The position numbers were made by a program, and so were the translations under genes. Below, in pieces: positions 20,601 through 60,148 of a stretch of 64,000 bases of DNA (position 1 is the stretch's first letter; each line of letters starts with the position of its first letter). The notes under the pieces were generated by a model. It was not told the DNA's origin. It worked only from the letters and a program-made list of their open reading frames with translations, and did no database searches. This DNA comes from Thraustochytrium sp. TN22 (taxonomy: Eukaryota > Sar > Bigyra > Thraustochytrida > Thraustochytriidae): NCBI GenBank assembly GCA_013306675.1, contig JABLUY010000050.1, forward strand, positions 1-64,000, read 5' to 3'.

Positions 20601-23600
20601 TGATGGACGCGAAGCGAATCACGTGAGGGTCATCGCCGCGCTGCAAGAAGCCGCGCCGCACGAGCGCGTCAATGGTCTCCTCGAGGAGCTTGGAGATCTC
20701 GCGCGGGTCGCCAGCTGCCGCCGCAGACCGGCCGGCGGCGCCGCCCGAGATGGCGTCCACCGCCTCTTGCATGACCGACTGCATCGAGGGCCGCGTGCGG
20801 CGGCCAGCGCTGGCACTGCCGCTGACGCTGGCACCACCACCGTCGCTGCCGTTGTGCAGGCTGCGTCGGCTGCCGCCGTTGGCCGCGGCCGCGGCGGCCG
20901 CGGCCGCGGCGACGCGGCGGCGGCGCTGGCGCCGCGAGGCGGAGCTGCGCCGCGAGGTCTTGGAGGACCGCGTCTGACCCGAGTCCTCGTCCGAGTCCTC
21001 GCTGTCGTGGGACTGGCCGCGCGGGAGCGAGGAATCGATGGCCTCCAAAATGTCCTGGTCCTCCTCGTCGCCGCCCTTGTAGCTGAGCAGCACGCTGGCG
21101 AGCTGGTGCATGCGGAACTCGGTGCCGATGACGGCCGAGACCTTGAGCGTGAGCTGCTGGTCGGGCGGAATGCGGTCGATGCGGCTTGTCATGAGGCTCG
21201 AGATGGTCTTCGGAAGGCCGAGCTCGTCGCCCTGGACCTCCTTGGCCAGGTCGCACAAGTCGCTGCCGACGCCGCGCAGCATGTCCGACTCGATCATGAG
21301 GTGGATGAGCTCGTACGCAAAAAAGGGTTGGCCCTGGGACCTTTGAAAGACCACGCGCGTGAGGCGCGGCGTCACGTTGGCGGAGCTGGTCCAGACGCTG
21401 ATGCATTCCATAATCTCGACCTCGGAGAGCGGCTTGAGCGCAATTTTGCGGGCCAGGTCGAGGTCGCAGAGCTTCGAGTACCAGTCGCCGACCGTGTTGG
21501 TGGGCGACGTCTGCATGGTGGCCGGGACGAGGTTCTCGCGCGCCGTCGTGATGATGCACATGGGCTCCATGCGTGCAGCCAGCCGGTAGAGTGCCTCCAT
21601 GGAGGACTGGTCGATCCATTGCAGATTCTCAACGATAATGCAGATGCGCACAACGTTGCGGTTCCTCGAGATGTTGCCCGAGGATACGTCAAAGTACTGC
21701 TCGGCGTGCTGCAGGTCATGCACCGCCTTGACGAAGATCTCCTCGATCAGACGAACCACGTGGACGTCGTTGCGGTCGCATTCCTTGGCGGTGCTGCCGC
21801 TGGCCGTTGGACCGTGGCCGAGCTGAAAAATGTCCGGCACGATGTGGCGCAGGAGCGGCGCATACTCGCGCACGATGTCCGGCACATCGTCGCAGCCGGA
21901 GAGGTCGCTGAGCTGGGTGGCGCGCGTCGGGTTGATCTCGTCCTCGTCGTCCTCGTCGTCCTCGTCATCATCGTCATCCTCTTCCTCCTCGAGCCGGGCC
22001 GCGACCGAGGCCGAGGCCATGCCCGCACTGCTCACGGCGCGCGCGATGCTGCGGTGCAGCGAATCGCGCCCGCGGCGGCCAGCGCCAACGCCGGCAGCCG
22101 CCGCCGCCGCGGCGGCCGCGTCCGCGGCAAACTCGTTCTCCAGGTCGGCGCGCGACTTCGTGCTGCGGCCCGAAGTCGGGCGCGAGGAGGCGTGGTCGGG
22201 CGCCAGACTGAAGAGGTCGTCCTCCGGCAGACGTGTCGCAAGGAGCTCGAGGCGCTCCTCGTTGGGGATTTTCACAAGCTTGCGGTCACCGACAAAGCTC
22301 TGTAGGAGCTGCATGAAGAGAGAACGCCAGACGTAGAAGCGATTTTGCGACTCGGTGTCGTCGCCGCGCGCATAGAGCGTGATCCACGGGCCGCCCTGCA
22401 TTTCCCCCAGCGCAAACTGGCACAGGCGTGTCTTGCCCATGCCGGCGTCGCCGGTGATGACCATGAGGCCGCCGGAGGGATTGATCGGGTCCAGTGTGGC
22501 GTCCAGGCGCTTCTTCACCTGCCGCTCCTCCTTGGCGCGGCCAATCTGGCAAATCATGCTCTGGCGCTTATCCAGCAAGCTGACGACAAGCTTCTGCTGC
22601 ACGGGCTGGTACACGACGACCTGGGACTTCTTGCCCTTGACCGAGATGTACTTGGCGTTCCTGAACTTGAAGACCTTGCGCGCCTCCTCGTACGTCTGCA
22701 AGCAGCAATAGATATTTCGGTCGGCCGCCACCATGAAGCGCGCCGCAAGGTTCACCTTGACGCCGTGCAGCGTGTACTCGCAGCGAACAGAGCCGCCAAC
22801 CGTGCCGCAGAACACCTCGCCCGTGGTGATGCCGATGGAGCAGTCCACGAGCCAGTCGGAGTCCTCCAAGTGCATGGCGCGCAGCTCCGCCTGCACAGCC
22901 ATGGCGGCCTTGATGGCGCGCACCGCGTCGTTCTCGTGCTTGAGCTTGGGCATGCCGTAGGCGCTCAACACCGAGGCGCCCTTGTCGTCGACGATGAAGC
23001 GCAGCACCGTGCCTTCGTAGCTCTCCACGTGCTTGTGCACGATCTCAAACGCGCGCTGGATGGTCTCCACGTCGCTGTCACGGCCCTTGAATTCGAGCCC
23101 GAGCAGGCGGCAGAACACCGTGCTGCACACACGCAGCTCCCCGCTCCAAATGCCGTTGCCGCCCTCGATCGAGACCAGCGCGGGGCTCGGCACGTAGCAG
23201 AGAAGCAGCTGCTGCAGCCGCCGGTACTGCAGCTTGTTGCTGGTGGTGAACTCCTTGAGCTCCTCCTGGAAAAGAGCCAGCTTGTCGTCCATGAACTCGT
23301 CGTGGTCCACCTCCTCGAGCAAAAAGTTGCCCGACTCGAGCTCCTCGCCGATGAGGGCGCCGCCCACCAGCTCGTAGGTCTCCCGCGACACCACGGTCTG
23401 GCCGGCCTCGGCCTCGGGCTCGGCGCTGGCGATCTGCTCCACGGGGGCGCCTGTCACCACGTACTCCCAGCGGTCCTTGACGCCGTGTACGTGGTAGCCC
23501 ATGATGGTGCCGCAGCCCACGCCGCAGTGCACACTCAGCTGAACGCCGGCGCCGCGCACGCGGAACTCGTGCGACACGAGGTCCATGGCCACCTGGCACG

Positions 23601-24705
23601 CGCAGAGCGTCGCCTCCTCCAGGCTCCCGTCGAAACTGGACGCCGGGAAGATGGCCAAGATGGCGTCGCCAGCGAACTTGACCACGTCGCCGCCGTGCGA
23701 GCAAATGTTGTTGACCATCTGCTCCAGCGAGGCGCCAATGTACTTGCTCAGGTTCTCGGCCGCAATGGCCTCGTGCGAGATCTCCTTGACCAAGCGCTCC
23801 GCCAGGCTGCTGAAGCCTGAGATGTCCGCGAAGAGCGCGGCGCCCTCGAACTGCTCCGAGAATACCTGTTTCGACATGGAATGGTGCATGTGGTGGCGCA
23901 CAAGGCGCGCCGGCACGAGCGACGCGAGCAGGTCCAGCTTGGTGATCTCCAGCTGGAGGGCCATCTCGGACTTGAGCCCCTCCAGATACTCGCGGCAGCT
24001 GTCCTTGTCCAGGCCGTCAAAGTCACCCAGGCTTAGGTCGTCCACGCGCTCCATGTCCGCGAGCGACTTGGTGGTGTCGGCGCGCGCCGCGCGGGCGCTC
24101 CGTGCCGACAGGCTGATTCGTGACCGGTTGGCCTGCTGGTTGCGCAGCGACGTCTTCAGGCGCCGCCGGCCCGGCTCCGTGTCGCGCGTGCCTGACCGCC
24201 CGCGCCCGCGCACGCTCGCCCGCGTGTCGCTCGAGTCGGTGCGCGAGCCGCCCGTGCTTGCGCGCATGCGCGACGGCATGGCGCCCTGCCTGCCCGAAGC
24301 CGCGGTGCGCACCGACCCAAACAGCCGGCCCTGGCCCTTGCCGCGCGGCTTGGCGGACCCAAAGGTGAACCTGGAGACGCTACCCACGGCCCTCACGTCC
24401 TCGTCGCTCGTACCCGTTTCGCCGTCCGTGGTGTGATCCTCCAACTCGTCGTCGTCATCCTCGTCGTCCAGCGCACGTACGCTGCCCTCCTCGCCTGAGC
24501 TGTGGCGGCCGGCCGCCTTGAGCGACCGCGCGCTCGTCATGCCGGCCGCCGAGGAAGCCTCGCTCAGGGCGTCCGAGTCGGTCTCTTTGTCTTCCTCCGA
24601 GCTGCGTCGCATCGCCGCCAGCCCGCCGCGCGGCATGCGCTGTGATGTGGAGTGCCGCCCGCCATGGCTCTGCCGCTTCCGTGCCGACGAGAGCCGCTGC
24701 AGCAT
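17617..24705 (-). CDS. Soluble adenylyl cyclase (ADCY10-type), class III cyclase with ATPase and repeat regions
   Basis: A 2362-residue protein. After a basic Ser/Arg-rich N-terminal ~230 residues come two class III cyclase homology domains. C1 (~residues 285-420) keeps both metal aspartates in FADISGFSSL and KFAGDAILAIF. C2 (~530-660) has lost the first Asp (VFCRLLGLEF) but keeps the DDKG segment and the N-x-x-x-R pair in VNLAARFM, as in ADCY10, implying one active site at the C1/C2 interface that makes cAMP. A P-loop ATPase follows (GDAGMGKT, ~750), with a Walker-B-like VENLQWID near 1018; an acidic low-complexity insertion (E/D run) lies between. The remaining ~1300 residues are helical, TPR-like, with poly-Ala, poly-Gln and Ser-rich inserts, ending in a His run. 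Family members respond to bicarbonate/Ca2+, which is inference here. The first ATG is at 24705; the frame continues upstream without another ATG. Confidence 0.9.
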   Translation of the reverse strand: MLQRLSSARKRQSHGGRHSTSQRMPRGGLAAMRRSSEEDKETDSDALSEASSAAGMTSARSLKAAGRHSSGEEGSVRALDDEDDDDELEDHTTDGETGTSDEDVRAVGSVSRFTFGSAKPRGKGQGRLFGSVRTAASGRQGAMPSRMRASTGGSRTDSSDTRASVRGRGRSGTRDTEPGRRRLKTSLRNQQANRSRISLSARSARAARADTTKSLADMERVDDLSLGDFDGLDKDSCREYLEGLKSEMALQLEITKLDLLASLVPARLVRHHMHHSMSKQVFSEQFEGAALFADISGFSSLAERLVKEISHEAIAAENLSKYIGASLEQMVNNICSHGGDVVKFAGDAILAIFPASSFDGSLEEATLCACQVAMDLVSHEFRVRGAGVQLSVHCGVGCGTIMGYHVHGVKDRWEYVVTGAPVEQIASAEPEAEAGQTVVSRETYELVGGALIGEELESGNFLLEEVDHDEFMDDKLALFQEELKEFTTSNKLQYRRLQQLLLCYVPSPALVSIEGGNGIWSGELRVCSTVFCRLLGLEFKGRDSDVETIQRAFEIVHKHVESYEGTVLRFIVDDKGASVLSAYGMPKLKHENDAVRAIKAAMAVQAELRAMHLEDSDWLVDCSIGITTGEVFCGTVGGSVRCEYTLHGVKVNLAARFMVAADRNIYCCLQTYEEARKVFKFRNAKYISVKGKKSQVVVYQPVQQKLVVSLLDKRQSMICQIGRAKEERQVKKRLDATLDPINPSGGLMVITGDAGMGKTRLCQFALGEMQGGPWITLYARGDDTESQNRFYVWRSLFMQLLQSFVGDRKLVKIPNEERLELLATRLPEDDLFSLAPDHASSRPTSGRSTKSRADLENEFAADAAAAAAAAAGVGAGRRGRDSLHRSIARAVSSAGMASASVAARLEEEEDDDDDEDDEDDEDEINPTRATQLSDLSGCDDVPDIVREYAPLLRHIVPDIFQLGHGPTASGSTAKECDRNDVHVVRLIEEIFVKAVHDLQHAEQYFDVSSGNISRNRNVVRICIIVENLQWIDQSSMEALYRLAARMEPMCIITTARENLVPATMQTSPTNTVGDWYSKLCDLDLARKIALKPLSEVEIMECISVWTSSANVTPRLTRVVFQRSQGQPFFAYELIHLMIESDMLRGVGSDLCDLAKEVQGDELGLPKTISSLMTSRIDRIPPDQQLTLKVSAVIGTEFRMHQLASVLLSYKGGDEEDQDILEAIDSSLPRGQSHDSEDSDEDSGQTRSSKTSRRSSASRRQRRRRVAAAAAAAAAANGGSRRSLHNGSDGGGASVSGSASAGRRTRPSMQSVMQEAVDAISGGAAGRSAAAAGDPREISKLLEETIDALVRRGFLQRGDDPHVIRFASIMLRESAYGLLLFRMRKALHVKVAEFYEEKYVDYLQPVYYLLAQHYYLAEATDKAIYYLEIAGNDALEIHDMDHVFVCFTRLLQLDPDHVKVSLWRRVSWYRKVAEAYMYYSRAEVAEETLLKALDMLNLRVTEPVVPQGTGDDSNASSGHSTLRSRGGRGPASTLLRRPPRRHSVNSEATHSDGVPGLSRAMRGAASGSPSWALPPHLDEGLEDATAPSLGMARTMAAAELMEAPLYGPGAAGAGSQSEIGSHKGGTLNRGAYETKFVRSEQALTMRRRGAVAGRRPTMEGASPMSERLKLVVQMMESDPELARPEHANRNFFRAIFSERSRRKQLKLRQNFVQKIKASYNRVEETEAFAEVQADSFSNVEIFLEASIIYDLLASLIVDQMNSVAMERRFNALTLAQAARQCSLMRPKQAAERRYNTSLEPGRLQLDLNDHKIENRALDPRRAAVDQLAICYAGQALFFASMQLWGWARETSEEYAIKAMQLYPEVRTSSLKGTIGLRLGEYALLVGDFERSSYHLERATWIFTFLGFHKEKLASLEMQIILGLLSGLDLRALRKLGVKIYNEGAAYPCVNTLVGFVELSCANYGSCQHQLEEMLRLPLEFLHESADLAVDGKVGFLDTLQYICKAMGRQLAVQNTISGSVDALVVLAFLMQRFFPHPTLAIVVARTAATLAEHHMHQDSTLPITDFHTLVAIFEIFADSFNPFCDLLWVQDETQASSGSTADPGQLQPHDSGESQQPQRQQQQQQQQSPPPSTSTRAFQYAHASATGNFMSDEDAAAADDDEERSAGQLDRAAYRERSGEQKATLSLSLADSPTAGGGRIGGRSVRLATDENDDRQCDETDPAEVKLREKLQPQWLKIGNLRAARKRSIGPLQGLLDVVTNYADVFEICQPAATYCTAIYAAVKAGKHTPRSIALFEKAAEQASEMGQHRLKFVALLEFALAKRNDAVLLKLRSRFAAIGSAFHVRKIDYFLHSGATHTHHHH

Positions 24706-24746
24706 TCTGCCAATACTTTTCCTGCGCTTGCTCTTGTTCTTGTTGT

Positions 24747-24778
<32 letters not shown>

Positions 24779-25881
24779 CTGATGCTCAACGATGAAGGAG
24801 ACGTGGACGCTGCTAGCTAGAGAAGAAACGAGGAAAGGGAGGAGATGAACAGAACGACGTCAAGGGGGAGGAGGAGACGAAGTTGAAGTTGAAGACGAAG
24901 ATGAAGGAGACCACCGGCAGCTCCTCCAGCTCCTCCAGCAGTGTGTTCACAACCAGGAGCCCACCAGCGAGCAGCGCTACGCGGCGGCGGCGAGGGAGGG
25001 AGGAGAAACGAGGGTGGCGGGCGAGAGGGGAGAGGGGCGCAGCCGCTGCGCCCCGCTCTCTCCGCCTTCCCGCCGCGCTCGCGCAGCGGCTGCGCTTCTC
25101 CGCCTCCTCGTGGATGGACTCCGCGCCGCGGTCGATGGCGCGCGCCTCGCCACGCGGCGCGCGTTCAAAAAAAAGAAAGAAAGAAAAGAAAGAGAAGACC
25201 AGGGGCGCGCGGCCACGGCTCGCACCGCGGGCGCGCGCGGGCGCGAGCGCGGGCACGCAGCCGGCGGCGCGCCGCGCCGCCGCGCCGAGCGCAGTCGCGG
25301 TCGGTCTGCGGCGGCGCCTGGGCCGGCGGCGCCGCGGCTCGAACGAGGCGCGCGCGCGTTTCCCCGCTCGGCGGAACCGGTTGCCCCGAGCCGGCTGGGT
25401 TGCCGCAACCCGTTTTCATTTTGTTCGGCGTCTCAAAGCCAAAAAAGACAGAGGCGCAGAACCAGGACTCGGACCTCACGCGCAGGAACCCGCGCGCCGC
25501 GGGCCAGTGCAGGCGGTGGGCGGCGCAGCGCGAGCGGAGAGGCGCCAGCGCAGCGCGAGCGCCCGGCCGAGGCCTGCGAGGCGCGCGCGGCGCGCTGGAA
25601 GCCAGGATCCGCTGGCAGTGCTGTGCTGCGAGGGCAGGAGAAGGCCAACGGCCGGGGACGGCGACTCGGAGTGCTTCCAGCACAGGTCGACGAGCAGGTG
25701 CAGCCTGTGCAGGTGAGCGCGGAGGAGTGCGGAGAGGGCGCTGGCTGCCAGGAGGTCGTTTCGACAGGAGGCGGAGCGTGGCGGATTTGGGCAGGGATTG
25801 ATGGTGACTGTGAAGCTGGTATGGACTGTCAGGTGGTTTGTGGTTATGGTTTGTTACAGGCGCAGGGGAGATCAAGTTTTA
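24706..25881. other. Intergenic, 1.2 kb
   Basis: Upstream region of the cyclase gene and 3' side of the PDZ/TPR/PH gene. It contains CTAGCTAG at about 24813-24820, AAGTTGAAGTTGAAG at 24880-24894 (about 175 bp upstream of the cyclase ATG) and an A/G-rich tract near 25168-25200. Open frames here are low-complexity; no gene is supported. Confidence 0.5.
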
Positions 25882-40221: not shown

Positions 40222-42027
40222 TCACTGGTTGTGACCCTCGTCGAGGAAGCGGCCGACGTTCTTCTTGTGCGTGTATGGCATGTCAACGGATACAAAGGGC
40301 GCGTAAAAGCCCTTGCGCGCGATCATGAGCTCGTAGGTGACCCAAGCCACCGAGGAGGCGAAGGAGCCAACGAAGGCATCGCAGCGCGACATGAGCCAAA
40401 TGTCGCTGGTGATCTCCGAAACGCGCTTGAGGTCGTTGAAGTCAGCACGCACATCGACGCCATCCGCGTCGCCCTCCTCGTAAAAGGCGCGGTCCTGCGG
40501 CTGGTACACAATGTTGAACTCGGACCGGTAGGCCTCGGCCTGCAGAATCACGTCAGGGTCGTCTGTGGCCAGGAAAACCTTCTCGTACGGGCCGTAGCGG
40601 CGCGAGAGGCGGCGCACTGCAATCATGTAGCGCGACAGCGGTAGGCACACGCGGTGGTCCTGGTACCGGTCGTGGCAGGAATCGCCGTGGCGCACGTGGA
40701 CCGCCACGCAGCGGCCCTCGGTGAGCCCGAGCGCTGCCCGCGCCTTCTCGTGCTGCTCCTTGCGGCGGCTGTTCTTGGTCAGGTAGTGCAGCGCCTGTGC
40801 GTGCTCCCACACAAAGCCGTAGCTCCTGCGCAAGTCGCTCGTCTCGAAGTGCACTGGGTTGTAGTTGTTGTGCGGGTTGTCCTCGCCGGGCGCATTGGTG
40901 GCGAACCACAGCATCCTGCTGTCGCCCCTGCTCCCGTGCAAGGCGCCCGCGCGATTCTTTTCAAAGTCGTCCACGTGCATGCGCTTGCGCGTGAGACTCA
41001 GGTCCAGCGCCGAATACGGCTGGCAATACGAGTACCTGTCGTCCACGGCCGGCAAGAAGCCCGCCGGGCAGTCGCAGCGACCGTACTCCATCACGTAGCG
41101 GCCCTGCGGCTTGCACAGCTGGTCCATGGAGATAACAGTCCGAGGGGAGGCCCCCACGCCGTATACGAGGACCTGCGACGGGTCTACATCCTCCACGCGG
41201 CACGACGAGAGCTCCGACAGCTCGCACGAGTACCCGCGGCCGCACGCCTCGTCCGAAAACCGGTACAGATTGTTGCCCACCAACACGGGCACGCCCGCCA
41301 CCCAGTGGTTCTGCGCGCTCCACGCAAACACGTACAGGTTGTACGCCCACCCGTGATTGAGCCAGCTCAGCAAGTGCCACTTGGGCTTGCTCAGGTCAAC
41401 CTTGCGCCCCGATCCTCCCTTGCGCGACCACACGCCGTCCTTGTTCGTCACACCTTCCCAGTCCGGCTCCAGAAAATCATTCGACGACGGGTTCTTGCAG
41501 TCCGCGGGGCGCTGCAGCTTGTCGATGGAGCTCTGCAGCTTCGCCGCGTCCTTGGCCCACCGTACCGGCTGGATCTGCTCCACGCACTTGAGCAGGTCCG
41601 GCGACGGCAGGTACTCGAGGTCCGACAGCAGGTCGAACTTGCACTCCAGGCCGCTGCCCCCGAACCGGTGCACGCGCAGCAGCCGCGACGGCGTGGGCGG
41701 CGCCGCAACATCTGCGCCCGCCTTGAGCGAGCGCGCGGCGCTCGCCGGCGTGAACCCCGTCGGCAGCTGCGAGTTCGACTTGCACCGGTGGTACTCCGCT
41801 GCCACCTCGGCGCAGTCCAGTTCCACCGTCCTCGGGCTCTCCGCGCCCGCGTCCAGGTGCCTGCCCAGCAGCACGTAGCACGCGTACAGCAGCAAGAATG
41901 CGCCGAGCCCGGCCTTTTGCGTCGCGCGCCGTCTCCACCAGGGCGCCGCATCCGCGGCCAGCGTGCGCCGCTCCCAGCGGCTCAGCGAGCGCGCGCCGCC
42001 TCCCATGCCGCCTGCGCCCAGCTGCAT
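40222..42027 (-). CDS. FUT8/NodZ-like fucosyltransferase-type glycosyltransferase, type II membrane protein
   Basis: A 601-residue protein. A single membrane segment near residues 38-57 (KAGLGAFLLLYACYVLLG) after a basic N terminus gives the type II topology of Golgi glycosyltransferases. The C-terminal ~220 residues carry the GT23-like donor-binding region: CVAVHVRHGDSC (compare HVRRTD in FUT8), the VFLATDDPDVILQAEAY segment, and the peptide-end motif SDIWLMSRCDAFVGSFASSVAW, all typical of GDP-fucose-using alpha-1,6-fucosyltransferases and relatives. The middle region is Cys-containing and shows no SH3 domain of the animal FUT8 type. The first ATG is at 42027; the open frame extends to a GTG at 42093 which I do not use. 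Donor and acceptor are inferred only. Confidence 0.78.
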   Translation of the reverse strand: MQLGAGGMGGGARSLSRWERRTLAADAAPWWRRRATQKAGLGAFLLLYACYVLLGRHLDAGAESPRTVELDCAEVAAEYHRCKSNSQLPTGFTPASAARSLKAGADVAAPPTPSRLLRVHRFGGSGLECKFDLLSDLEYLPSPDLLKCVEQIQPVRWAKDAAKLQSSIDKLQRPADCKNPSSNDFLEPDWEGVTNKDGVWSRKGGSGRKVDLSKPKWHLLSWLNHGWAYNLYVFAWSAQNHWVAGVPVLVGNNLYRFSDEACGRGYSCELSELSSCRVEDVDPSQVLVYGVGASPRTVISMDQLCKPQGRYVMEYGRCDCPAGFLPAVDDRYSYCQPYSALDLSLTRKRMHVDDFEKNRAGALHGSRGDSRMLWFATNAPGEDNPHNNYNPVHFETSDLRRSYGFVWEHAQALHYLTKNSRRKEQHEKARAALGLTEGRCVAVHVRHGDSCHDRYQDHRVCLPLSRYMIAVRRLSRRYGPYEKVFLATDDPDVILQAEAYRSEFNIVYQPQDRAFYEEGDADGVDVRADFNDLKRVSEITSDIWLMSRCDAFVGSFASSVAWVTYELMIARKGFYAPFVSVDMPYTHKKNVGRFLDEGHNQ

Positions 42028-42177
42028 GCCCGCGCAGCCCGCGCGCGCGTGCGCGTCTCGCGCTCCGCCTCGCGCCGCCTCGCGCCGCGCCACCGCCGCC
42101 GCCGCCGCGGATCACCGTCTCGCCTAGCGTCTCTCGGTCGCAGCGCAGCCGCTCTCTGCGCGCGGCGGGGGCATTCA

Positions 42178-42219
<42 letters not shown>

Positions 42220-42783
42220 TGCCGCCGCGCCGCTCTGCCGCGCGCGCCGCCGCCGCGCGCGTCCGAGTCCGGCAGTCTTGCCTGCGGCTCGCCGGAGTGC
42301 GCCTCAAGTTGCGTTGCGCAGTTTCGCGGCACGGCGCCGCGGCGGTTGCGCGGCACCGCCGCAGGTCCGCGTCGTGGAGGCCTAACTTAAAGTTACGTAC
42401 GAGTTGCGGCAGTTGCAGGACGGGGCGTGGCTTCCGGCCGCCAGGGCAGGCTGCCCGCGGCCGCGAACAGCTTGCCGTGGCTGCAGCTGGCTGCGCCTCG
42501 CGCGGTCGCTCGCCAGCTAGCTAACCCAACCCACTGCTTCGGAGTGGTGAGTCTCAGGGCAGGGACGATCTTTTTGTTGAAGTATCCACGGCAATGGCCA
42601 AGTTGAAGTTGCAGTGGTGGTCACAGAAGGCCAAGCAAGTTTCGACTTGCGGCAGGCCAGTGAGCCTGGAGAAGCGTCACTGCACGCCCAGCAGCAGATC
42701 GCGATCGAAGCAGAAGACTCGGAGCGCATCCGGAGATTCTCGCGCGCGCGGAGGGCAACAGCGGCGGCGGCGGCGGAGGGACG
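42028..42783. promoter_or_regulatory. Divergent intergenic region (FUT8-like / metallothionein-like)
   Basis: The space between two divergent starts. It holds a (GCC)14 run at 42178-42219, CTCAAGTTGCG at 42302-42312, CCAGCTAGCTAAC at about 42513-42525 and CCAAGTTGAAGTTG at 42598-42611, 173-186 bp before the metallothionein-like ATG. I could not point to a clear metal-response element (TGCRCNC) with confidence. Confidence 0.45.
42178..42219. repeat. (GCC)14 microsatellite
   Basis: A pure trinucleotide run ~150 bp upstream of the FUT8-like start. Confidence 0.9.
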
Positions 42784-43289
42784 ATGACGTGCAAGTGCAA
42801 GGACTGCAAGTGCGGCGCGAACTGCAAGTGCTGCGAGGTACGTGGGCGCTGGCGGCCGGCTGGCTGACGGCGCGCGGGGAAAGAAATCTCTGGCCGCGTC
42901 CGAATCGCAACGCTCGCTTCGCTTGCAACGGGCGACCACCGCCGCGACGCGCGCGACCGGCGACGGCGCGAGGGGGCGACGGCCACGGACGGCGGAGCGG
43001 ACGGCGAGGACTGACCAAGCTGATGGACGTAATTTGAAAATGACAGTGCTGCAACGGCGGCACGTGCACGTGCGGTGACAACTGCAACTGCTGCGGCAAG
43101 GACTGCGGCTGCAAGTCCGGCGGCCAGTGCAAGTGCCCCCCGGGCAAGTGCACCTGCAAGGGCGGCTGCTGCAGCTCCTCGAGCGCCGCGGCCATCCAGG
43201 CGCGCCTCGTGGACAACCTCCCGGTGGTCCTCATGGTGCTCGGCGCCGGCCTCCTCATCGGCTTCGCGCTGGGCAGCAAGAAGAACTGA
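42784..43289 (+). CDS. Metallothionein-like Cys-rich protein with C-terminal membrane anchor (two exons)
   Basis: Exons 42784-42837 and 43047-43289, separated by a 209-nt GT-AG intron (donor GTACGTGG, acceptor TGACAG) in phase 0. The product is 98 residues. Residues 3-60 contain 22 cysteines, mostly as C-x-C, C-C and C-x-x-C, in small Lys/Gly-rich repeats (CKCKDCKCGANCKCCE, then NCNCCGKDCGCK), the arrangement of metallothioneins that bind Zn/Cu/Cd through thiolate clusters. Cys-patterns continue seamlessly across the splice junction (KCCE joined to CCNGG), which supports the intron. A Ser/Ala linker, an amphipathic stretch and a hydrophobic helix (LPVVLMVLGAGLLIGFALG, residues 76-94) then end in SKKN, the layout of a tail-anchored protein. 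Soluble metallothioneins lack such an anchor. It converges on the WD40/FN3 gene, 102 bp between stops. Confidence 0.82.
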
Positions 43290-43391: not shown

Positions 43392-45403
43392 TTAGCTTCC
43401 GTGATCAGAGGCAGGCCGCACGACCGTGACCGGTGCAGACGGCTCGCTCTGTGGTCCCATGCCTACGACGTTCTCTGGAACGACACAGAATGTGTACGCC
43501 ACATCGTCCTCCATAAAGAAGCTTGCACCCACCGCTTCTTCCTCCTCGTCCACTTGCTCGCCCGCGTCCGACGCGTCGTCTAGCCGGACGCCGGGCCAGA
43601 TCGACGCGAGGTACGGGCCCGTGGGGCTCACTTGCTCCAGACGAGCGCAGGTGCCCTGCGCAGTGCCATCATCAACGCGAAAGGCATTCACGTAGTACCG
43701 CAGCACCGGACGGCCGCCGTCAAAGGCCGGCGCCTGCCAGGTGAGCCGCACGGCGTGGAAGTCCGCCGCCAGCACCACGGGAGCAGCCACGGCCTCCGGG
43801 ACGCGCGCCGGGAGCGTCGACGTCGCGGCGCTGGGGAGGCTTCGAGGGCTGCGGCCCACCTCGTTCTCTGCGACGAGCGCGAACTCGTACGAGGTCCCAG
43901 GGTCCAGGTTGCCCACCTCCGTCGCGAGGCAGTCGCCGGGAAGCTGCCGCACTGGCACAAAGGCGCCCTGGCCTCGCGCGCGCAACGACAGGTGGTACGC
44001 GAGCACGGCACTGCCGTACTCGTGCTCCGGCGGCGCCCAGACCACGCGCAGCGAGTCGATCTGCGCGTCCACCGCCCGCACGTCGCGCGGCGCCGAGGGC
44101 GGGCCGCGCTTCACCACGTACGCCCGGCTCGCCGCGGAGAACGCGCCCGTACCCTGCTCGTTCGTGGCGCACACCTGGAAGCGGTAGGAGGTGCCCGACT
44201 CGAGGTCCTCGGCCGTGGCGTGCGTGACGCGGCCGCCCACGCGCACCGAGGACAGCTCGGAGCCCACGATCTCGCGCCGGCGCCGCCACGCCGCCGTCGC
44301 AGCCGCCAGGTCCTCGTGCACCGCGCCGCTATACTGCTCGCGGTCGTACGCGAGCGCGGCGCGCAGCCAGACCAGCATGCCCCGCGCCAAGCCCAGCTTC
44401 AACTGCGACTCCGCCTCGTCCAGCTCCTGCACCAGGGCCTCGACCCACGCAGGGAGCGCCGGGAGCGCCGGCCGCAGACTGCGCGCCAGCTCCGGGTCAC
44501 GCGTCGCGAGCCGAAAGGACCGCACGCGCCCCAGAAAGGGCTCCGGGTGCCGGAGCGCCGCGTCCAGCTCGAGCCGCTGCGGCAGGGCGTGGGTCGTGGG
44601 CGACGCCGTAGGCGACGGCGGTCCCGACTGGGGCTCCGTGCTACGTGCTGCGGGCCCGTCCGCCTCCTCTGCCGTGCGCAGGAGCACGTACAGGGCGACG
44701 CGTAGCACGCGAAAGTCGGCGTCCGTTAAGAGGCCGGCCATCTTGACCTCGACCACCTGCTTAGAGTGCAGCGCCGCGGCGGCCCGCTCCACGCGGGCCG
44801 CGGCGGCGCGAACAGACTCCTGATCCAGCGCAGCGCGAGCCGCGTCAGCACGCAGCCACTCCGTGTCCTCGCACTGCATCATCTCGTCCACTACGGCAGC
44901 ACGCGCAAAGCGCACCACGTAGCCCGTGATGGCGCTGCCGTTGTCGCGCGGCGGCGTCCACGCCACCGTGAGGCTCGTCGTGCTCGTGGACTGCAGGCGG
45001 GGCGCCTCCGCCACGGCATCCGGCGCGCACGTGTCCGTCATGGCTGAGATGCTCGGTGAGGACCATGGCCCTCGTCCCAACTTGTTGGCCGCCGTCACCG
45101 TGAACTGATACGCCATGCCCGGGTCCAGCCCGCGAACGGTGGCGCACATCTCCAGCAGCTGGTCTGCCGTAACGCCTTTGCGCGTGGCGGCCGACCCGTT
45201 CGCCGACAGCGCCACCTGGACCAGGACCTGGCGCTGGTTCGCCAGGTTGTCCGCCTCGCGCAGCTGCCGCCGCACGCGCAGCGTCTCCTTGGCGCCCAGA
45301 TGCCTGTTTTCGTGCAGCCATGTCTCCAGCTTGCGTCGCCGCTGCAACGCGGCCTCCTGGTCGCGCTCCGCCGCCGCTCGGGCATCACGCCATGACACAA
45401 TCA

Positions 45404-45436
<33 letters not shown>

Positions 45437-47975
45437 TCTCCTCGTCCTCCTCCTTGACTCCGCTTTTTTTGGCCTCCGTACCTTGCGCTGCATCGTCAGC
45501 ATCGCGAGATCGCTGCTGCGCTTTCGACGAAGCCTGGCGCGGCGCCCGCTTGAGCCCGCCGCGCGTACGAATGGCAAACTCGTGAATGTGCGCGCCCATG
45601 GAGTCCGGCGCGACCCATACCAAGTCCATGGTCGTCGTCGACGTTCCCGTCACAATGGGCGCGTCGATGCGGCCCGGCGCAGCGGCCAGGCAGCGTCGCG
45701 GATCCGACGCCGGGCTCCATGGGCCCTGGCCATTCTCACTCGCGGCCGCCACGCAGAACTCATATGCGCTGCCCGGGTGCAAGCCCGTCATGCGTCGCTT
45801 GAAGGTGCGCAGGCTGTCGCGGCGGTCCACCACCACGTTCGCGGCGTGCTCAAAGTCGCCCAGGCCGTTCTCGCGCAGTTGGATGGCAAAGGAAACCACA
45901 GGCCGCCCGTTCTCCACCGGCATTTCCCAGCACAGTGTCATCTCCGTGGGCGCGGCCTGCTCCACCACAGGCGGCGGAGGCGCAAAGGGCAGGCCGGACC
46001 CGAGCTTCCACGTACGCAGGGTGCCGTCGTAGCTGCAGGAACGCAAAAAGTTGCAGCATTCCGGGGCCGCGATCTGATCCTTGTCATCTTCTGCGCCGGT
46101 TTCGGTCTCTGGGCGCACGGCGGCCGCCGTGGCAAAGCGGGGCCCGCGCAAGAAGTGCAGGTCCGAGACGGCGTCAACGTGGCCGCGCAACGTTTGCAGC
46201 GCCGTGTCCTCGGCGACATCCCAGATGGTCAGCGTGCCGTCCGCGCAGCTGGTGACGAGCACCTCCACGGGCAGCCCGCGCTGGCCGCTCACGAAACCAA
46301 GCTCGCACTTGAGGATCCAGTCCTCGCTCCGGAAACGGGCCACCAGGTTGCCCTCAGGGAAGGTCCACACCTTGGCGACGCAGTCTGACCCGCACGAGGC
46401 CGCACGCGTGCCGGTTTCGTTGATGCAGAGCCCGTTGATCCACTCGCCGTGCGACGGGGGCCCGTCCGCGCGGCCCGCGCGGTCCGAGCCTTGGGCGTAC
46501 CGTGTGCGGTGTTCGTGGAAGATGCGCACCGCGCCCCCGTGCGCCGCGGCAAAGCGAGCCGCCGCCTTGCGCGCCTTGCGGTCCGCCTTGGCGCGGGCCT
46601 CGCGCAGCGCCTCCTCTGCCGCCTGCGTGCTGGCGTCCTGGCCCTTCCACAGGGAGGACTGCAGCGTCGGCGAGTGCAGCAGCTCGCGCTCCGCGAGCTC
46701 CACGCGGCGCGCGCGGTCGCAAGCGTCGCAGGCGTCGTCGTACCAGCCGGAGTCTCGCCTTTCCGCATCGAGCGTTTCGGAGCTGGCATCCGCGTCGCCC
46801 TGCTTGCGCTCGTGCGCATCGGGCTCGGGCTCGTAGCGTGCGTCCCAAAGCCGTACGCGTGGGTCCGAGGTGTCGCCGCCGGTCAGCAAAAAGGCGCCGT
46901 CTGGCGACAGGACGCAGGCGGTGACACCGCCGCGCGTGCCGCGGTACGTGTAGAGCAGGGCGCCCGTGTCGAGGCACCACTTCTTGATGGTACCGTCGGC
47001 TGACCACGAGAAGAGCCTGTTGTCGAAGCTGGTGAGTCCGTAGACAACGTCGTCGTGGTCCGGGCGCACATCCTCGAGCGGCGGCAAGGGCGGGAGGGCA
47101 CGCTTCCACGCAGGCTCATCGTCGTTCGCCGGCTCGTCGCCAGCCGACGAGGCAGCTGACGAAATGATTGGCGTTGGCGGCGACGGCAGCGGCGGTGGCG
47201 CTCCGAGCGCCATTCGGAAGAGGCGCTGCCAGTGGTCCCAGCCACAGCGAATGAAGCCGTCGCCGCACGCAAAGAGCACGAGCCAGCCCAGGTGCTTGCG
47301 CAGCGCGCCGCCGCGCACCACGCAGGCTGACAGGACGGGCGCGCCCTCCGGCGCGCGGCCGAGCAGATGCGTGCTGCCGGAGCTCTGGCGGTTACGCTGC
47401 ATGGAATAGACCACGAGACGTACTGTGCCATCGCCGCAGGTGGCAACTGCCGCGTCTGAGCGTACCGGGAGGGCGCCAGCGGGGAGCAGCGGCTCGCCGG
47501 CGAGCAGTGCGGAGGGCACTTGGGCCAGGTCGTCCTCGTCCAGCGGCTCCATCTTGCGCACGAGGCAGCCGACGTCGAGCGTCTCAAAGAGCTCGGTGCT
47601 ATCGCGCCAGCGCTGCAGCTTGGCGCCGCGGCCGAAGCGGAAGAGCAGGCCGTCTTCGCGCATTTCGTCAAGGTCGCGCTCGTGCTGCGCGGCGGCGTGT
47701 TTCCTGGCACGCAGCTCGCTCTGGCGCGCCTCGCGCAGCATCTTGGCGGCACGCTCGCGGACCTCGAGCGCCATGGCGCGCGCGTCTTCGCGCGCCATGG
47801 CCGCGCGCTCGCCGACCTGGTTGAGCATGGCGCTGCGCTCCAGCGCGCGCTGCTCCTCGGCGCCGGACCGCGCGGCATCGCGCCGCTTCTTGCGCGCCGC
47901 CTCGGCGCGCGCCGTGCGCCGCGCGCGCCGCGCCTCGCGCGCTTCGTACAGCGACTCCGCCAGCTCGCGGATCAT
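43392..47975 (-). CDS. Large protein with N-terminal coiled coil, WD40 propeller and about five fibronectin type III domains
   Basis: A 1527-residue protein with no match I can name. Residues 1-~115 are an Arg/Ala/Glu-rich coiled coil. WD40-type repeats follow to ~660 (IKKWCLDTGALLYTYRG, VRLWDARY, INGLCINETGTRAASCGSD, LTIWDVAEDTALQTLRGHVD, CSYDGTLRTWKLG), interrupted by charged loops. Then come five FN3 domains recognised by the paired motifs L/V-x-W-x-P-P and G-T/S-x-Y-x-F-x-V-x-A-x-N: near 680-780, 790-1010, 1020-1310, 1320-1410 and 1415-1515. Domains two and three carry long helical or charged insertions between strands. No membrane segment or signal peptide is seen, so it is presumably intracellular; a cytoskeletal or ciliary scaffold is possible but unproven. 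The ATG at 47973-47975 fits. Confidence 0.82.
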
Positions 47976-50320: not shown

Positions 50321-51396
50321 ATGGCGCGTCGCGTTCCGCACGTGGCCGTGCTGGGCGAGTAAGTCGCGCGCAAGCGCGAGAGGATACGCGGCGTGCGTTC
50401 GAGTCAAGTCAAGTCAACTCACGCGCGCGCGGCCACGACAGCGCCTTCGTGGACATCTTCGTGCCGGTGGGCGGCGCGAAGCTGCCGTTCTGGGGCGGCG
50501 ACGTGCTGCTGGACGGCAACGTGGAGCTCAAGGCAGGAGGGTCGGCGTCCAACACGGCGTCGCACTTGGCTAGCCTGGCGCGCGCGTCGACAGCGCTCCA
50601 AGTGAGCTTGCACACGGCGCTGGGCGTGGACGACTGGGCCGACAAGGTGCGGCTGCACCACGCAGGCACGGGCGTGGAGCTCGTGGCCGTGGAAACGCCC
50701 GGCACGTGCACCGGCGTCTGCATCGTGCTGAGCGGGTCAGAGGACCGTGCTTTCATGACGCAGAACGGCAGCATGGCCCTTCTGGGCGCCGACATGCTGG
50801 CCGAGGAACGCCTGCGCGAGGCGCAGCACCTGCACATTGGCGGCTTCTTCTCTGTGCCGCGCTTAAAGGCGGAACTGCCGGGACTGGTGCGCAAGCTGCG
50901 CGAGGCGAACGCTGACCTGCGCGTGTCGCTGGACACCAACTACGACGCCACCGGGGACTGGGGCAGGGCGAACGGCGTGTTGGACGCGCTGTTGGCCGAA
51001 GTGGACGTGTTTCTGCCCAACGAGACCGAGGCCTGCGCCATTACAGGTGTGGAGGATGTCGAGGAGGCCGCCCGCGCGCTCGCCGCCCGCTTGCGCGCGC
51101 CCAACGGCGTGGCGGTCGTCACGCACGGCGCGCTCGGCTGCGTGGTGGCGCAGCGAGCCGAGGCCGGGGCGGCCACCGTGCAGCGCGTCGCGGCGCCCAA
51201 GCTGGAGCGTGTCGTGGACGCCACGGGTGCCGGCGACGCCTTCAACGCCGCCTTTCTGCACGAGTACGTGCGGGGTGCCTCGCCCGTGGACGCTGCAGCG
51301 CGCGGCGTCTTGGGCGGCGCAGTCGCCGTCAGCTATCCAGGCGCCTGCGATACGCTTCTCACAGACGAGCTCCTCGCCGAGGTCAAGGGCGCGTGA
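50321..51396 (+). CDS. pfkB-family carbohydrate kinase (ribokinase/adenosine kinase-like), two exons
   Basis: Exons 50321-50358 and 50442-51396 with an 83-nt intron (donor GTAAGT, acceptor CGACAG) give 330 residues. Splicing restores the family's N-terminal strand, VAVLGDAFVDIFVPVGG, which the unspliced frame lacks; this is strong support for the short first exon. Further hallmarks: the GGSASNTASHLA substrate-binding segment, FLPNETEA near residue 225, and the C-terminal signature VVDATGAGDAFNAAF with the catalytic Asp and anion hole. The family phosphorylates sugars or nucleosides with ATP in the cytosol; the exact substrate is not evident. A putative AATAAA signal lies 100 bp after the stop. 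Confidence 0.9.
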
Positions 51397-56670: not shown

Positions 56671-59187
56671 TCATGTGTCGACGAGCGCGCGAACGTGCGC
56701 CAGCGCATTCTCCCCGAGCTGGTCGCGACTGAGCACGAGCTTGCGGGGCTCGCCGGGCGCACCAGACTTGGCGCGCGTCCACTGGCCGTAGCCGCCCTCG
56801 AGCAGGGAGACAATGCGGCCCTGACAACAAGTGCGCGCGACATTCTGGATCTCGGCCGTCACGAAGGCGTAGTCCTCCGGGAGAAGGTCAATGCCCGACC
56901 AGTACTTGCCGGCTTCGGTGCGGCTGCAGCCGACGTCGTTCTTGCCGGCGTCGAAGCCTGCCGAGATGAAGATGAGGTCCGGATTGAAGTTGCGCAGCGC
57001 CGGCACGAGGCGCGTGAGAACGTGGTCGCGAAAGGCCTGGCGGCCGTAGTTGGGCCCGCTCGGCAACGGTGGCGGCGCGGCGGCGTCGGCAGCAGTTGCG
57101 GTCGCGGCGGCCGCGGCGGCCTCGACCTCGGCCTCGGCGTCCATGTCGGCGTCCACCTCGACCTCGCCGCCGCGGCGCCGGCGAAGTGTCTCGACCGCGG
57201 AGCCGGCCTCGGCCTCGTCGCTGCCGGTGCTGCTGGTGCTGGAAGAGTCGGCGGAGGAGGAGGAGGCGGCGGCGCCTGGAGCGGCAGCGGCGGTCACGGA
57301 CACGCGGCGCTTCTTAGAGCGCGTGCGGTTGTTGGGCACGGACCAGAGCGGGGTGAGCGGCGAGTTGAGCACGTTGCAGGCCGGGTCATCGTGGCCGCCC
57401 GAGCCAGGGTAGAACTCGCCGCTGCCGACGGCCTTGCCGTCCGCCTTGTCGTAGAGGTGGATGGAGAAGAAGAAGACGTCGCGCGGGCGGCAGAACTTGG
57501 TGCGCACGATCTCCTCCGTGCCGTTGCCGTGGTGCACGTCAAAGTCCACGATGGCGACACGCTGCACGGCGGCCTTGTGCGCGGTGAGCGCGTGCATAGC
57601 GCCGATGGCGACGTTGTTGAAAATGCAAAAGCCACACGAGACGGCATTGTCGAGCAGGCCATTGACGCCGGCGTGGTGGCCGGGCGGGCGCACGAGGCAG
57701 AAGGCGTTGCGGTTGGCGCCCGTCACGACGCGGTCCACGGCGTGGCAGACGGCGCCCACGGCGCGCCGCGCCGCCGGCAAAGAGCCGGCCGAGAAGAAGG
57801 TGTCGCAGCCGCGCTCGTCTTTGAGCTGATTGTCGCGCAGGCCATTCATGACCTGCACGCGCGGCGTGAAGGGCACGGGCTTGCCAAGCGAGGCCACCTG
57901 GTGATGCAGGTCGAAGACGAAGTCGATGTACTTGTCGTTGTGCGCGTAGCGCAGGAGCGCCTTGGACGCAGTCGGGAAGCCGGCGCTCACGCGCAGGCAC
58001 TCGGCTGGGATGCCCTGTTCCAGCTTTGAGAAGATGGCCGTGATGCGTTCCGGCGCCTCCTGGTGCGCCTGCGCCGTGCGGTGGCCCATGCACTCCTCGT
58101 GGCGCAAGATGAGCGTCTGCATGCTGGGCGCCGCCTCGAAGAGCGCGCGCCGCGACGCAGCGCGCACGCGCGAGGCCATCTGCTTGCTTTGGTGGAAGAA
58201 GCCCGCCGCGTCCAGCGCCGACTCGCGGTCCGCGTTGCGCACGCCCACGTCCGCGCCGTACACGCTCACCAGCGCGTGGATGCACTCGGCACGCCCGAAG
58301 CGCGCGGCGCGGTGCAGCGCCGTGTCGCCCGCGGCGCTCTGGCCGTCCATGTCGGCGCCGGCGTCCAGGAGCCGCTCCAGCGCGCCGCAGTTGCCCATGG
58401 CGGCCGCCCAGTGCAGCGCTGTGAAGCCCTCGCTGTCGGCCGTGCGCACGCGCGCGCCGCGCTCCAGGAGCTTGCCCACGAGCCGCGCCGCGTCGCCGCC
58501 GTCCTCGCAGGCGGCGGCGCTCATGAGCGCCGTGAACCCGGTCTCTGGCTCGCTCGCGTCGATTTCCTCGATCTCCAGCTCCACGAGCAGCCGGTCCAGG
58601 GCGGCCTCGTCGCCCTGCAGAATGGCCTCGTGCAGCTTGGTGCGCTGCTGCAGGGGCGGCGGCGCCTCGCTGGCACTCAGGCCACTCAGCGCCTCGCGCT
58701 TGGCGCGCGCCGCCTCGCGCCGCTCCTGCGTGCTGCGCGCCTCCTCTGCATTTTGCGACGTGAAGATGAGGCTCACTGCGCCGCTGCCCACGGTCGTTGT
58801 AAGCCTCGGCGACCCGAGCCCGGCAGGCCGCGGCGACATTGCCGAGCCCAGCCGGGGCGAGTACACCGGCACCGGGAAGGCCTCCTGCCGCTCGAGCCGC
58901 TCCGGGTTCACGATGCGCAGCTGCACGCCGCCGCGTGCTTCCTGATCCTGCGGCTGCTCCTGCTGCTGCTGCTCTTGCGGCTGCGGCTTCTCCTCCACCT
59001 CCTGGTCCTTGCCTTGTGCGTCGTCCGGCGCCGAGCTCGACGCCGACGTGGACGACGACGTCAACGAGGACGAGGACGACGACGACGACGACGACGACGA
59101 CGGGCCTGCGCGAGCAACCCCGGCCGCGACCCTCGCCTTGTCCTCGTCCTCGCCCGCGCTCTCGGGCGCCGCTCGCGGGCTCCCCAT
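56671..59187 (-). CDS. Ankyrin-repeat class II histone deacetylase
   Basis: An 838-residue protein. A disordered acidic/Ser-rich N terminus (poly-Ser and Gln/Glu runs) precedes four or so ankyrin repeats at ~190-330 (GFTALMSAAACEDGGDAARL, GFTALHWAAAMGNCGALERLL, GDTALHRAARFGRAECIHALV). The deacetylase domain occupies ~360-835 with intact zinc and charge-relay elements: LVRPPGHHAG (~497), IVDFDVHHGNGT (~543), SAGFDAGKND and the terminal LEGGYG. It removes acetyl groups from lysine, most likely nuclear. A ~95-residue low-complexity acidic insertion (~615-710) splits the domain between NSPLTPLWSVPNN and the AFRDHVL helix. The ATG at 59187 is chosen; upstream frame is proline/arginine-rich. Confidence 0.9.
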   Translation of the reverse strand: MGSPRAAPESAGEDEDKARVAAGVARAGPSSSSSSSSSSSSLTSSSTSASSSAPDDAQGKDQEVEEKPQPQEQQQQEQPQDQEARGGVQLRIVNPERLERQEAFPVPVYSPRLGSAMSPRPAGLGSPRLTTTVGSGAVSLIFTSQNAEEARSTQERREAARAKREALSGLSASEAPPPLQQRTKLHEAILQGDEAALDRLLVELEIEEIDASEPETGFTALMSAAACEDGGDAARLVGKLLERGARVRTADSEGFTALHWAAAMGNCGALERLLDAGADMDGQSAAGDTALHRAARFGRAECIHALVSVYGADVGVRNADRESALDAAGFFHQSKQMASRVRAASRRALFEAAPSMQTLILRHEECMGHRTAQAHQEAPERITAIFSKLEQGIPAECLRVSAGFPTASKALLRYAHNDKYIDFVFDLHHQVASLGKPVPFTPRVQVMNGLRDNQLKDERGCDTFFSAGSLPAARRAVGAVCHAVDRVVTGANRNAFCLVRPPGHHAGVNGLLDNAVSCGFCIFNNVAIGAMHALTAHKAAVQRVAIVDFDVHHGNGTEEIVRTKFCRPRDVFFFSIHLYDKADGKAVGSGEFYPGSGGHDDPACNVLNSPLTPLWSVPNNRTRSKKRRVSVTAAAAPGAAASSSSADSSSTSSTGSDEAEAGSAVETLRRRRGGEVEVDADMDAEAEVEAAAAAATATAADAAAPPPLPSGPNYGRQAFRDHVLTRLVPALRNFNPDLIFISAGFDAGKNDVGCSRTEAGKYWSGIDLLPEDYAFVTAEIQNVARTCCQGRIVSLLEGGYGQWTRAKSGAPGEPRKLVLSRDQLGENALAHVRALVDT

Positions 59188-59441
59188 GTTGCCGCCGCGC
59201 TTCGCCTCGCTGCCCGTCCAGCCGGCCGCGCGGGCGGGCGGGCGGGCGGGCGGGCGGGCGGGCGAGCGAGCGAGCAAGCGCGCGCCGGCGCCGACCGCCG
59301 CCGCGCCGCCGCCGCGGGCCCGGGGCGCGCGCGGAGTGGTCCTGGCCTGCCGCGCTCCGCCCAGGCGATGCCGCGAGGCACCGCAGGCGAGGCAGGCGAG
59401 GCGGCAAACGCGGCAACGCCCGCGCGAGGCAGGCCCGCGCA

Positions 59442-59477
<36 letters not shown>

Positions 59478-59491
59478 GAGGCGGCGGCAGG
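59188..59491. promoter_or_regulatory. Compact bidirectional promoter region (HDAC / four-TM protein)
   Basis: 304 bp separate the divergent starts. It contains a (GGGC)n run at about 59230-59263 and a GGC-rich stretch just before the plus-strand ATG. Confidence 0.45.
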
Positions 59492-60148
59492 ATGTACTTC
59501 GAGAGCGAGCGCGAGGTGCTGCGGCGGCTGCGCGGCGTGTCGGCGGCGCTGGTGGTGCTGGTGGCGGTGGCGCTGCTGGTGCCCTGGGCGCGCGTTACGG
59601 GCGTTGGCGTACCGGGGTTGTACGCGGACATTGGGCTCACGTGGTGCCACGGAGGACCGCTGTGCAACGCGCTCAAGCAGGCCAGAGAGGCGCATGACGG
59701 GATGGGCTCCACCGGCACGGGCGCCGACGTCGGCATGCCGCCTTGGGCGGCCAAGTTCTTGGACGACCAGATTCAGTCGAGCCAGATCTACGCGGCCACC
59801 GTTACCACGCTCGTCGCCATGGGGCTCACCGTTGCCTGCGTCATCGGCGCCGAGGTCATCTGGAGCCGCTTCGGCTACCAGTCCGTGCGCGGCCTCGACT
59901 ACCGCGTCGTGCTGCAGCTGGCCTCCTGCGGCATCTTCCTTGCCTCCAGCATCATCTACTGCGTCATGGTGCAATCTTCGCTCAACGAGGGCAAGTACCT
60001 GGCCGGCGTCTACGTCGTGTCCATTGGCGGCGTCCTGTCCCTGCTCGCCTGCATCTGGGTGCTCATCCGCATGAATGACATGAAGGACTCCATCGATCAC
60101 TCCGCCTTTGGCACCGGCCCCAAGGGCGTGCGCTACGGTGCCTTTTAG
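59492..60148 (+). CDS. Four-transmembrane protein, claudin/PMP22-like topology, unknown function
   Basis: A 218-residue protein with four hydrophobic helices at ~17-35, ~100-122, ~137-160 and ~170-193. TM1 and TM2 are separated by a ~65-residue loop containing GLTWCHGGPLC, loosely reminiscent of the W-x(n)-C-x(n)-C loop motif of the PMP22/claudin superfamily. The C-terminal tail is short and polar (DHSAFGTGPKGVRYGAF). There is no signature strong enough to assign a family; membrane location is clear, function is not. The ATG at 59492 immediately precedes the conserved-looking part, with TM1 starting ~15 residues later. Confidence 0.7.
   Translation: MYFESEREVLRRLRGVSAALVVLVAVALLVPWARVTGVGVPGLYADIGLTWCHGGPLCNALKQAREAHDGMGSTGTGADVGMPPWAAKFLDDQIQSSQIYAATVTTLVAMGLTVACVIGAEVIWSRFGYQSVRGLDYRVVLQLASCGIFLASSIIYCVMVQSSLNEGKYLAGVYVVSIGGVLSLLACIWVLIRMNDMKDSIDHSAFGTGPKGVRYGAF

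Follow-up and report, generated by a model that had tools for sequence, protein, structure and literature searches.

Metallothioneins form a superfamily of proteins of low mass that are rich in cysteine, arrange it in CxC and CC arrays and contain few or no aromatic or histidine residues. A Cys-rich, Lys-containing composition free of histidine and aromatic residues is usual for them, and their defining trait is the binding of several d10 metal ions in thiolate clusters. The mammalian protein, with 20 cysteines, holds seven divalent ions. The known families are normally soluble, and the usual view of metallothioneins is that of soluble buffers in the cytosol; the lack of a membrane segment is usual for them, if not strictly defining. 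A metallothionein-like domain on a membrane protein is found in fungal copper P-type ATPases in the form of Cys-rich N-terminal extensions. According to the available part of a review of microalgal metallothioneins (PMC7216689), studies of these proteins are very few in eukaryotes beyond fungi, animals, plants and ciliates, and in its main text the word ‘transmembrane’ occurs zero times. Plant metallothioneins that were anchored to the yeast plasma membrane gave metal-accumulating strains (PMC5451056, available part). Two further groups of small proteins are close in appearance, as far as the accessible portions of the sources describe them. CYSTM proteins are Cys-rich and tail-anchored, carry three to four consecutive cysteines as part of their membrane module, and include two yeast members tied to metal stress (PMC10217909). 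The PLAC8/PCR proteins, which are tied to cadmium resistance, are membrane proteins with two membrane helices and a PLAC8 motif (PMC12467093). A natural tail-anchored metallothionein was not found among the matches listed in our open-literature searches, which covered titles and abstract starts, and the novelty of such a protein thus rests on a limited search. The cited title ‘Membrane-bound metallothionein 1’, on mouse dendritic cells, probably concerns a surface-associated form of ordinary MT1.

We analysed a locus in a 64,000-nucleotide stretch of Thraustochytrium sp. TN22 DNA (the window), which a first-pass annotation had read as a metallothionein-like protein with a C-terminal membrane anchor. 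The product of this locus shares with the metallothioneins (PF00131, PF01439, PF12749 and others) a high content of cysteine (22 in 60 residues), the CxC and CC spacing, the lack of histidine and aromatic residues and the small size. It differs from them by a C-terminal hydrophobic helix and by the lack of a Pfam match. In the fungal copper ATPases the Cys-rich domain is attached to a transporter, whereas here it would have a stand-alone anchor. With myrGFP-plant metallothionein fusions engineered in yeast it would share the idea of a metal-thiolate domain at the cytosolic face of a membrane; in those constructs the attachment is an artificial N-terminal myristoylation at the plasma membrane, whereas here it would be a natural C-terminal helix (PMC5451056, available part).

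Table 1. Features of the metallothionein-like gene and its flanks (positions in the window)
Feature	Position	Strand	Description
FUT8-like ORF	40222-42093	-	head to head with the metallothionein-like gene
Interval between FUT8-like ORF and metallothionein-like gene	42094..42783	.	common head-to-head interval
Exon 1	42784..42837	+	18 coding codons, product MTCKCKDCKCGANCKCCE, 7 Cys
Motif copy 1, C-x-C-G-x-N-C-x-C-C	42805-42834	+	within exon 1
Intron (predicted)	42838..43046	+	209 nt, GTACGT...ACAG, phase 0
Branch-like CTGAC	43011-43015	+	within intron, ~30 nt 5′ of acceptor
Exon 2	43047..43289	+	80 codons + TGA, 15 Cys
Motif copy 2, C-x-C-G-x-N-C-x-C-C	43065-43094	+	within exon 2
Putative tail anchor, residues 76-94, LPVVLMVLGAGLLIGFALG	43218..43274	+	hydropathy, AlphaFold2 helix 76-93
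C-terminal tail SKKN	43275..43286	+	
FN3/WD40 ORF	43392-47975	-	tail to tail with the metallothionein-like gene

Joining the two exons across 42837/43047 gives a product of 98 aa, MTCKCKDCKCGANCKCCECCNGGTCTCGDNCNCCGKDCGCKSGGQCKCPPGKCTCKGGCCSSSSAAAIQARLVDNLPVVLMVLGAGLLIGFALGSKKN. Its 22 cysteines, every one encoded by TGC, all lie within residues 3-60, in agreement with the number that had been assigned to the first ~60 residues. Exon 2 contributes a Cys part with the second motif copy, followed by a Ser/Ala linker, the hydrophobic segment and the tail. Read without splicing, the frame of exon 1 runs into a stop after 27 residues, and the frame of exon 2 is closed upstream by a stop at 43041-43043, one codon before the exon. 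The 60-aa ORF list contains neither of the two frames, in line with the earlier remark that the gene is invisible to a single-exon ORF search. When joins of the GT/GC-AG type were enumerated, with donors at 42800-42999 and six AG acceptors at 42883-43046, three kept the frame open to the stop. The intron of the model was the sole one of these with a GT donor; the other two used GC donors and gave products with 19 or 22 cysteines. The donor GAG/GTACGT is near the spliceosomal consensus. The open frames are read directly from the DNA and the splicing is predicted; we regard it as almost certain that a genuine protein gene of two exons lies here.

With a codon score whose training set was 11 neighbouring ORFs, both exons showed a coding bias. 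Per codon, the claimed frames reached 0.62 in exon 1 and 0.56 in exon 2, and the best of the other five frames 0.25 and 0.01, respectively; in the intron all six frames scored below 0. The synonymous-only part of the score was 0.47 for exon 1 and 0.54 for exon 2. Among 164 candidate introns, which are the combinations of donor, acceptor and phase that passed simple criteria, the intron of the model ranked first and the identical splice sites in another phase ranked 133; as these criteria were written after the intron was seen, the ranking is supportive and not blind. The second-best intron in the same scoring, at 50359-50441 (+) (GTAAGT...ACAG, 83 nt, phase 2), suggests another split gene there. 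The pattern C-x-C-G-x-N-C-x-C-C, written from exon 1, was observed exactly twice in the window, once per exon and in two different frames, and in none of 100 shuffles. This distribution indicates that the exons belong together, and the repeat links them independently of the splice sites. Two copies within residues 1-60 were obtained in 0 of 100000 shuffles. The coding bias, the splice sites and the motif common to both exons give good support to the gene model and to its build of a Cys domain plus a C-terminal hydrophobic helix. The motif repeat also suggests that the Cys domain arose with an internal duplication.

The second part of the protein is dominated by a hydropathy peak at residues 76-94, with a Kyte-Doolittle 19-mer mean of 2.37, and the ~19-residue hydrophobic C-terminal segment of the first-pass annotation is therefore confirmed. 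As a control, the 11 neighbouring ORFs were read in their two wrong same-strand frames, which gave 497 segments of 34 residues; none was as high as 2.37, and three reached 1.6. The five best 19-mers all fall within residues 72-96. The segment consists of 19 contiguous uncharged residues, contains none of the 22 cysteines and carries GxxxGxxxG at residues 86-94, a pattern that can support helix packing. It is followed by four residues, as had been described, although only two of the four are basic. Nineteen uncharged hydrophobic residues with a short basic tail are the usual appearance of a tail anchor, and the prediction here is one transmembrane segment close to the C-terminus, followed by a short tail. 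AlphaFold2, run on exon 2 alone as a single sequence, placed a helix at full-length residues 76-93, with a mean pLDDT of 81 in the block 79-88 and of 68 or less in every other ten-residue block. The model is poor overall (mean pLDDT 60, pTM 0.27), and a fold search with it gave 0 matches, a result to which so poor a model lends no meaning. With the start at 42784 assumed, the N-terminus MTCKCKDCKC contains lysine and cysteine, has no long hydrophobic run and thus lacks a signal sequence. A C-terminal membrane anchor is very likely; tail anchoring, cytosolic topology and the organelle are predictions from the sequence.

It could be argued that the protein is a soluble metallothionein whose hydrophobic C-terminus gives weak insertion, forms a membrane-surface helix or serves as a degradation or assembly signal, with no stable anchor. 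The solubility of the described families would fit this, as would the sum for residues 76-94 on the biological hydrophobicity scale, which is slightly positive (+0.16) and borderline for insertion. However, the uncharged 19-residue run with its mean of 2.37, the short basic tail and the AlphaFold2 helix over the segment speak against it, and we consider a soluble protein unlikely. For a tail-anchored protein, the location may be estimated from described trends. In yeast, ER tail-anchored proteins have a transmembrane GRAVY above 1.75; in mammals, a hydrophobic transmembrane domain and a low tail charge favour the ER; in one construct a tail charge of +2.9 led to mitochondria and one of +0.9 to the ER (PMC5450235, available part). 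The two lysines of the tail fall between the values of that construct. Hydropathy and tail charge would favour the ER or secretory pathway ahead of mitochondria, by trends that are those of yeast and mammals and not of the host lineage.

The Cys domain (residues 1-60) is made up of three blocks with 9, 7 and 6 cysteines and contains 9 Lys, 3 Asp and 1 Glu, with no His, Phe, Trp or Tyr. CxC occurs at 9 positions and CC at 4, as expected from the C-x-C/C-C clusters noted earlier, and the longest Cys run is 2. This part of the protein has the Cys-richness, the CxC/CC spacing and the freedom from aromatic residues and histidine by which metallothioneins are described; from their usual solubility the protein departs through the segment 76-94. 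The stretch CKCGxNC/CKCGANC presumably resembles the Cys block at the C-terminus of plant type 1 and type 2 metallothioneins, and also the Fucus metallothionein. By analogy with the mammalian protein, the capacity of the domain might be about seven to eight ions of Zn or Cd. At the Pfam cut-off for metallothioneins, 0 families matched the full length, residues 1-60, exon 2 or the tail, and no Pfam model matched the 98-residue protein at E up to 10. Two control metallothioneins, human and plant, matched their own Pfam families at 5.6e-23 and 1.7e-30. Pfam therefore recognises metallothioneins when the sequence is close, and the 98-residue protein is divergent. NCBIfam and PHROGs gave no family match, and the PDB no solved chain by sequence. 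Of the first reading as a metallothionein-like protein with a membrane anchor, the gene model, the Cys domain and the C-terminal hydrophobic helix have held up; no Pfam family supports the assignment to the metallothioneins. Upstream of the gene the animal metal-response core is not enriched (3 found versus 3.89 expected). Cys density and motif style make it highly probable that the domain is metallothionein-like.

These same features bear on whether the protein could be a Cys-rich membrane protein of other function, be it redox-active, palmitoylated, zinc-structural or CYSTM- or PLAC8/PCR-like, without metal storage. Small, Cys-rich, tail-anchored stress proteins exist in the form of CYSTM (PMC10217909, available part), and the metallothionein models gave no match. 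On the other hand, neither CYSTM nor PLAC8 matched in Pfam. In CYSTM the consecutive cysteines belong to the membrane module, whereas here residues 76-94 contain 0 of the 22 cysteines, the protein has no CCC, and its cysteines form CxC/CC arrays with Lys and Gly between them. The PLAC8/PCR proteins have two helices, whereas a single hydrophobic segment is present here. Such a function, like a soluble protein, appears unlikely.

The window has a GC content of 63-75% in 2-kb steps and is eukaryotic by its genes. The 14 long ORFs given to Pfam included COG4, EDR2_C/START/PH, cytochrome-b5 desaturase, choline transporter, FUT8-like and FN3/WD40 families, among others. The tail-to-tail neighbour of the metallothionein-like gene is a 1527-aa single ORF with WD40 repeats and then several FN3 domains. 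Further domain combinations in single open frames are ankyrin repeats with a histone deacetylase domain at 56674-59772 (-), and an adenylate/guanylate cyclase catalytic domain with an AAA_16 ATPase domain in 2399 codons at 17620-24816 (-). The promoter and 5′ leader of the metallothionein-like gene presumably lie in the interval shared with the FUT8-like ORF, in which a CGC trinucleotide repeat of ~26 copies is located at 42178-42256. An upstream ATG at 42594 (GGCAATGGC) is out of frame with the start of the gene and opens a frame of 147 aa, which extends across exon 1 and on into the intron. The leader and the start at 42784 are for this reason not certain, and the ATG may either influence where translation begins or open an upstream ORF.

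This ATG also leaves room for an additional exon upstream that encodes a targeting sequence, in which case the Cys domain would face the lumen or the outside, by way of a signal peptide or a GPI-type C-terminus; the Ser/Ala linker with the hydrophobic end is indeed superficially similar to a GPI signal. We consider this quite improbable, since the coding score of 42594-42783 is below 0 in each of the three plus-strand frames, the peptide that begins at the ATG has no long hydrophobic stretch at its start, and a C-terminus of KKN is unlike the usual GPI signals.

Relatives were sought in the window and in sequence collections. A tblastn search of the window showed no second copy of the gene among the 25 best matches, and elsewhere the window is Cys-rich only in repeats or on the strand opposite the metallothionein-like gene. 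That there is no gene here, and that GC-rich low-complexity DNA reads as Cys-rich by chance, can practically be dismissed: repeat-derived Cys runs do occur near 24654 and 33045 (+), but these are poly-Cys, whereas at the locus each exon shows codon bias in a single frame, the motif recurs in two reading frames and the splice sites are close to consensus. Searched with the protein, IMG/VR yielded 20 pattern stretches and no relative. Among the GTDB contigs, 1 of 106 stretches passed (56% over residues 65-94) and was rejected as chance; the stretch is part of a 220-aa bacterial ORF that has 2 cysteines and probably encodes a metal-dependent repressor, and its selection rests on the search word IQARLVDN, which it contains. 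When the Cys motif was searched for as a degenerate DNA pattern, 91 IMG/VR stretches with 92 in-frame occurrences were obtained. Ninety of the 92 are overlapped on the same bases by a frame at least as long and were therefore taken as wrong-frame reads; they include the two most Cys-rich stretches, L067 and L014, with 19 and 16 cysteines in view. The remaining two, L057 and L076, with 6 and 9 cysteines in view, do not resemble metallothioneins. No metallothionein-like protein was thus found among the 92 occurrences in these viral stretches. As the two collections hold viruses and prokaryotes, absence from them says little about eukaryotic relatives.

Taken together, we consider it probable that the gene encodes a metallothionein-like metal-thiolate domain, a Ser/Ala-rich linker and one C-terminal tail-anchor helix; the protein would most likely act as a local metal buffer or donor at the membrane. 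Most likely it would be made without a signal peptide and inserted post-translationally as a tail-anchored protein. Soft or borderline metals (Zn, Cd, Cu(I)) would then be bound as a cluster by the Cys domain on the cytosolic side of an internal membrane; there the domain may buffer metal at the membrane surface or hand it to membrane transporters, and the GxxxGxxxG face of the helix may permit self-association. Whether the protein stands for a natural class of tail-anchored metallothioneins, serving as buffer or donor at the organelle surface and perhaps self-associating through GxxxGxxxG, appears to us an evenly balanced question. A natural membrane-tethered metallothionein would illustrate how a plain ORF search can miss Cys-rich genes that are short, split and of low complexity, and it would mean that cells can fix a metal store on the surface of an organelle, beside the transporters that fill and empty it.
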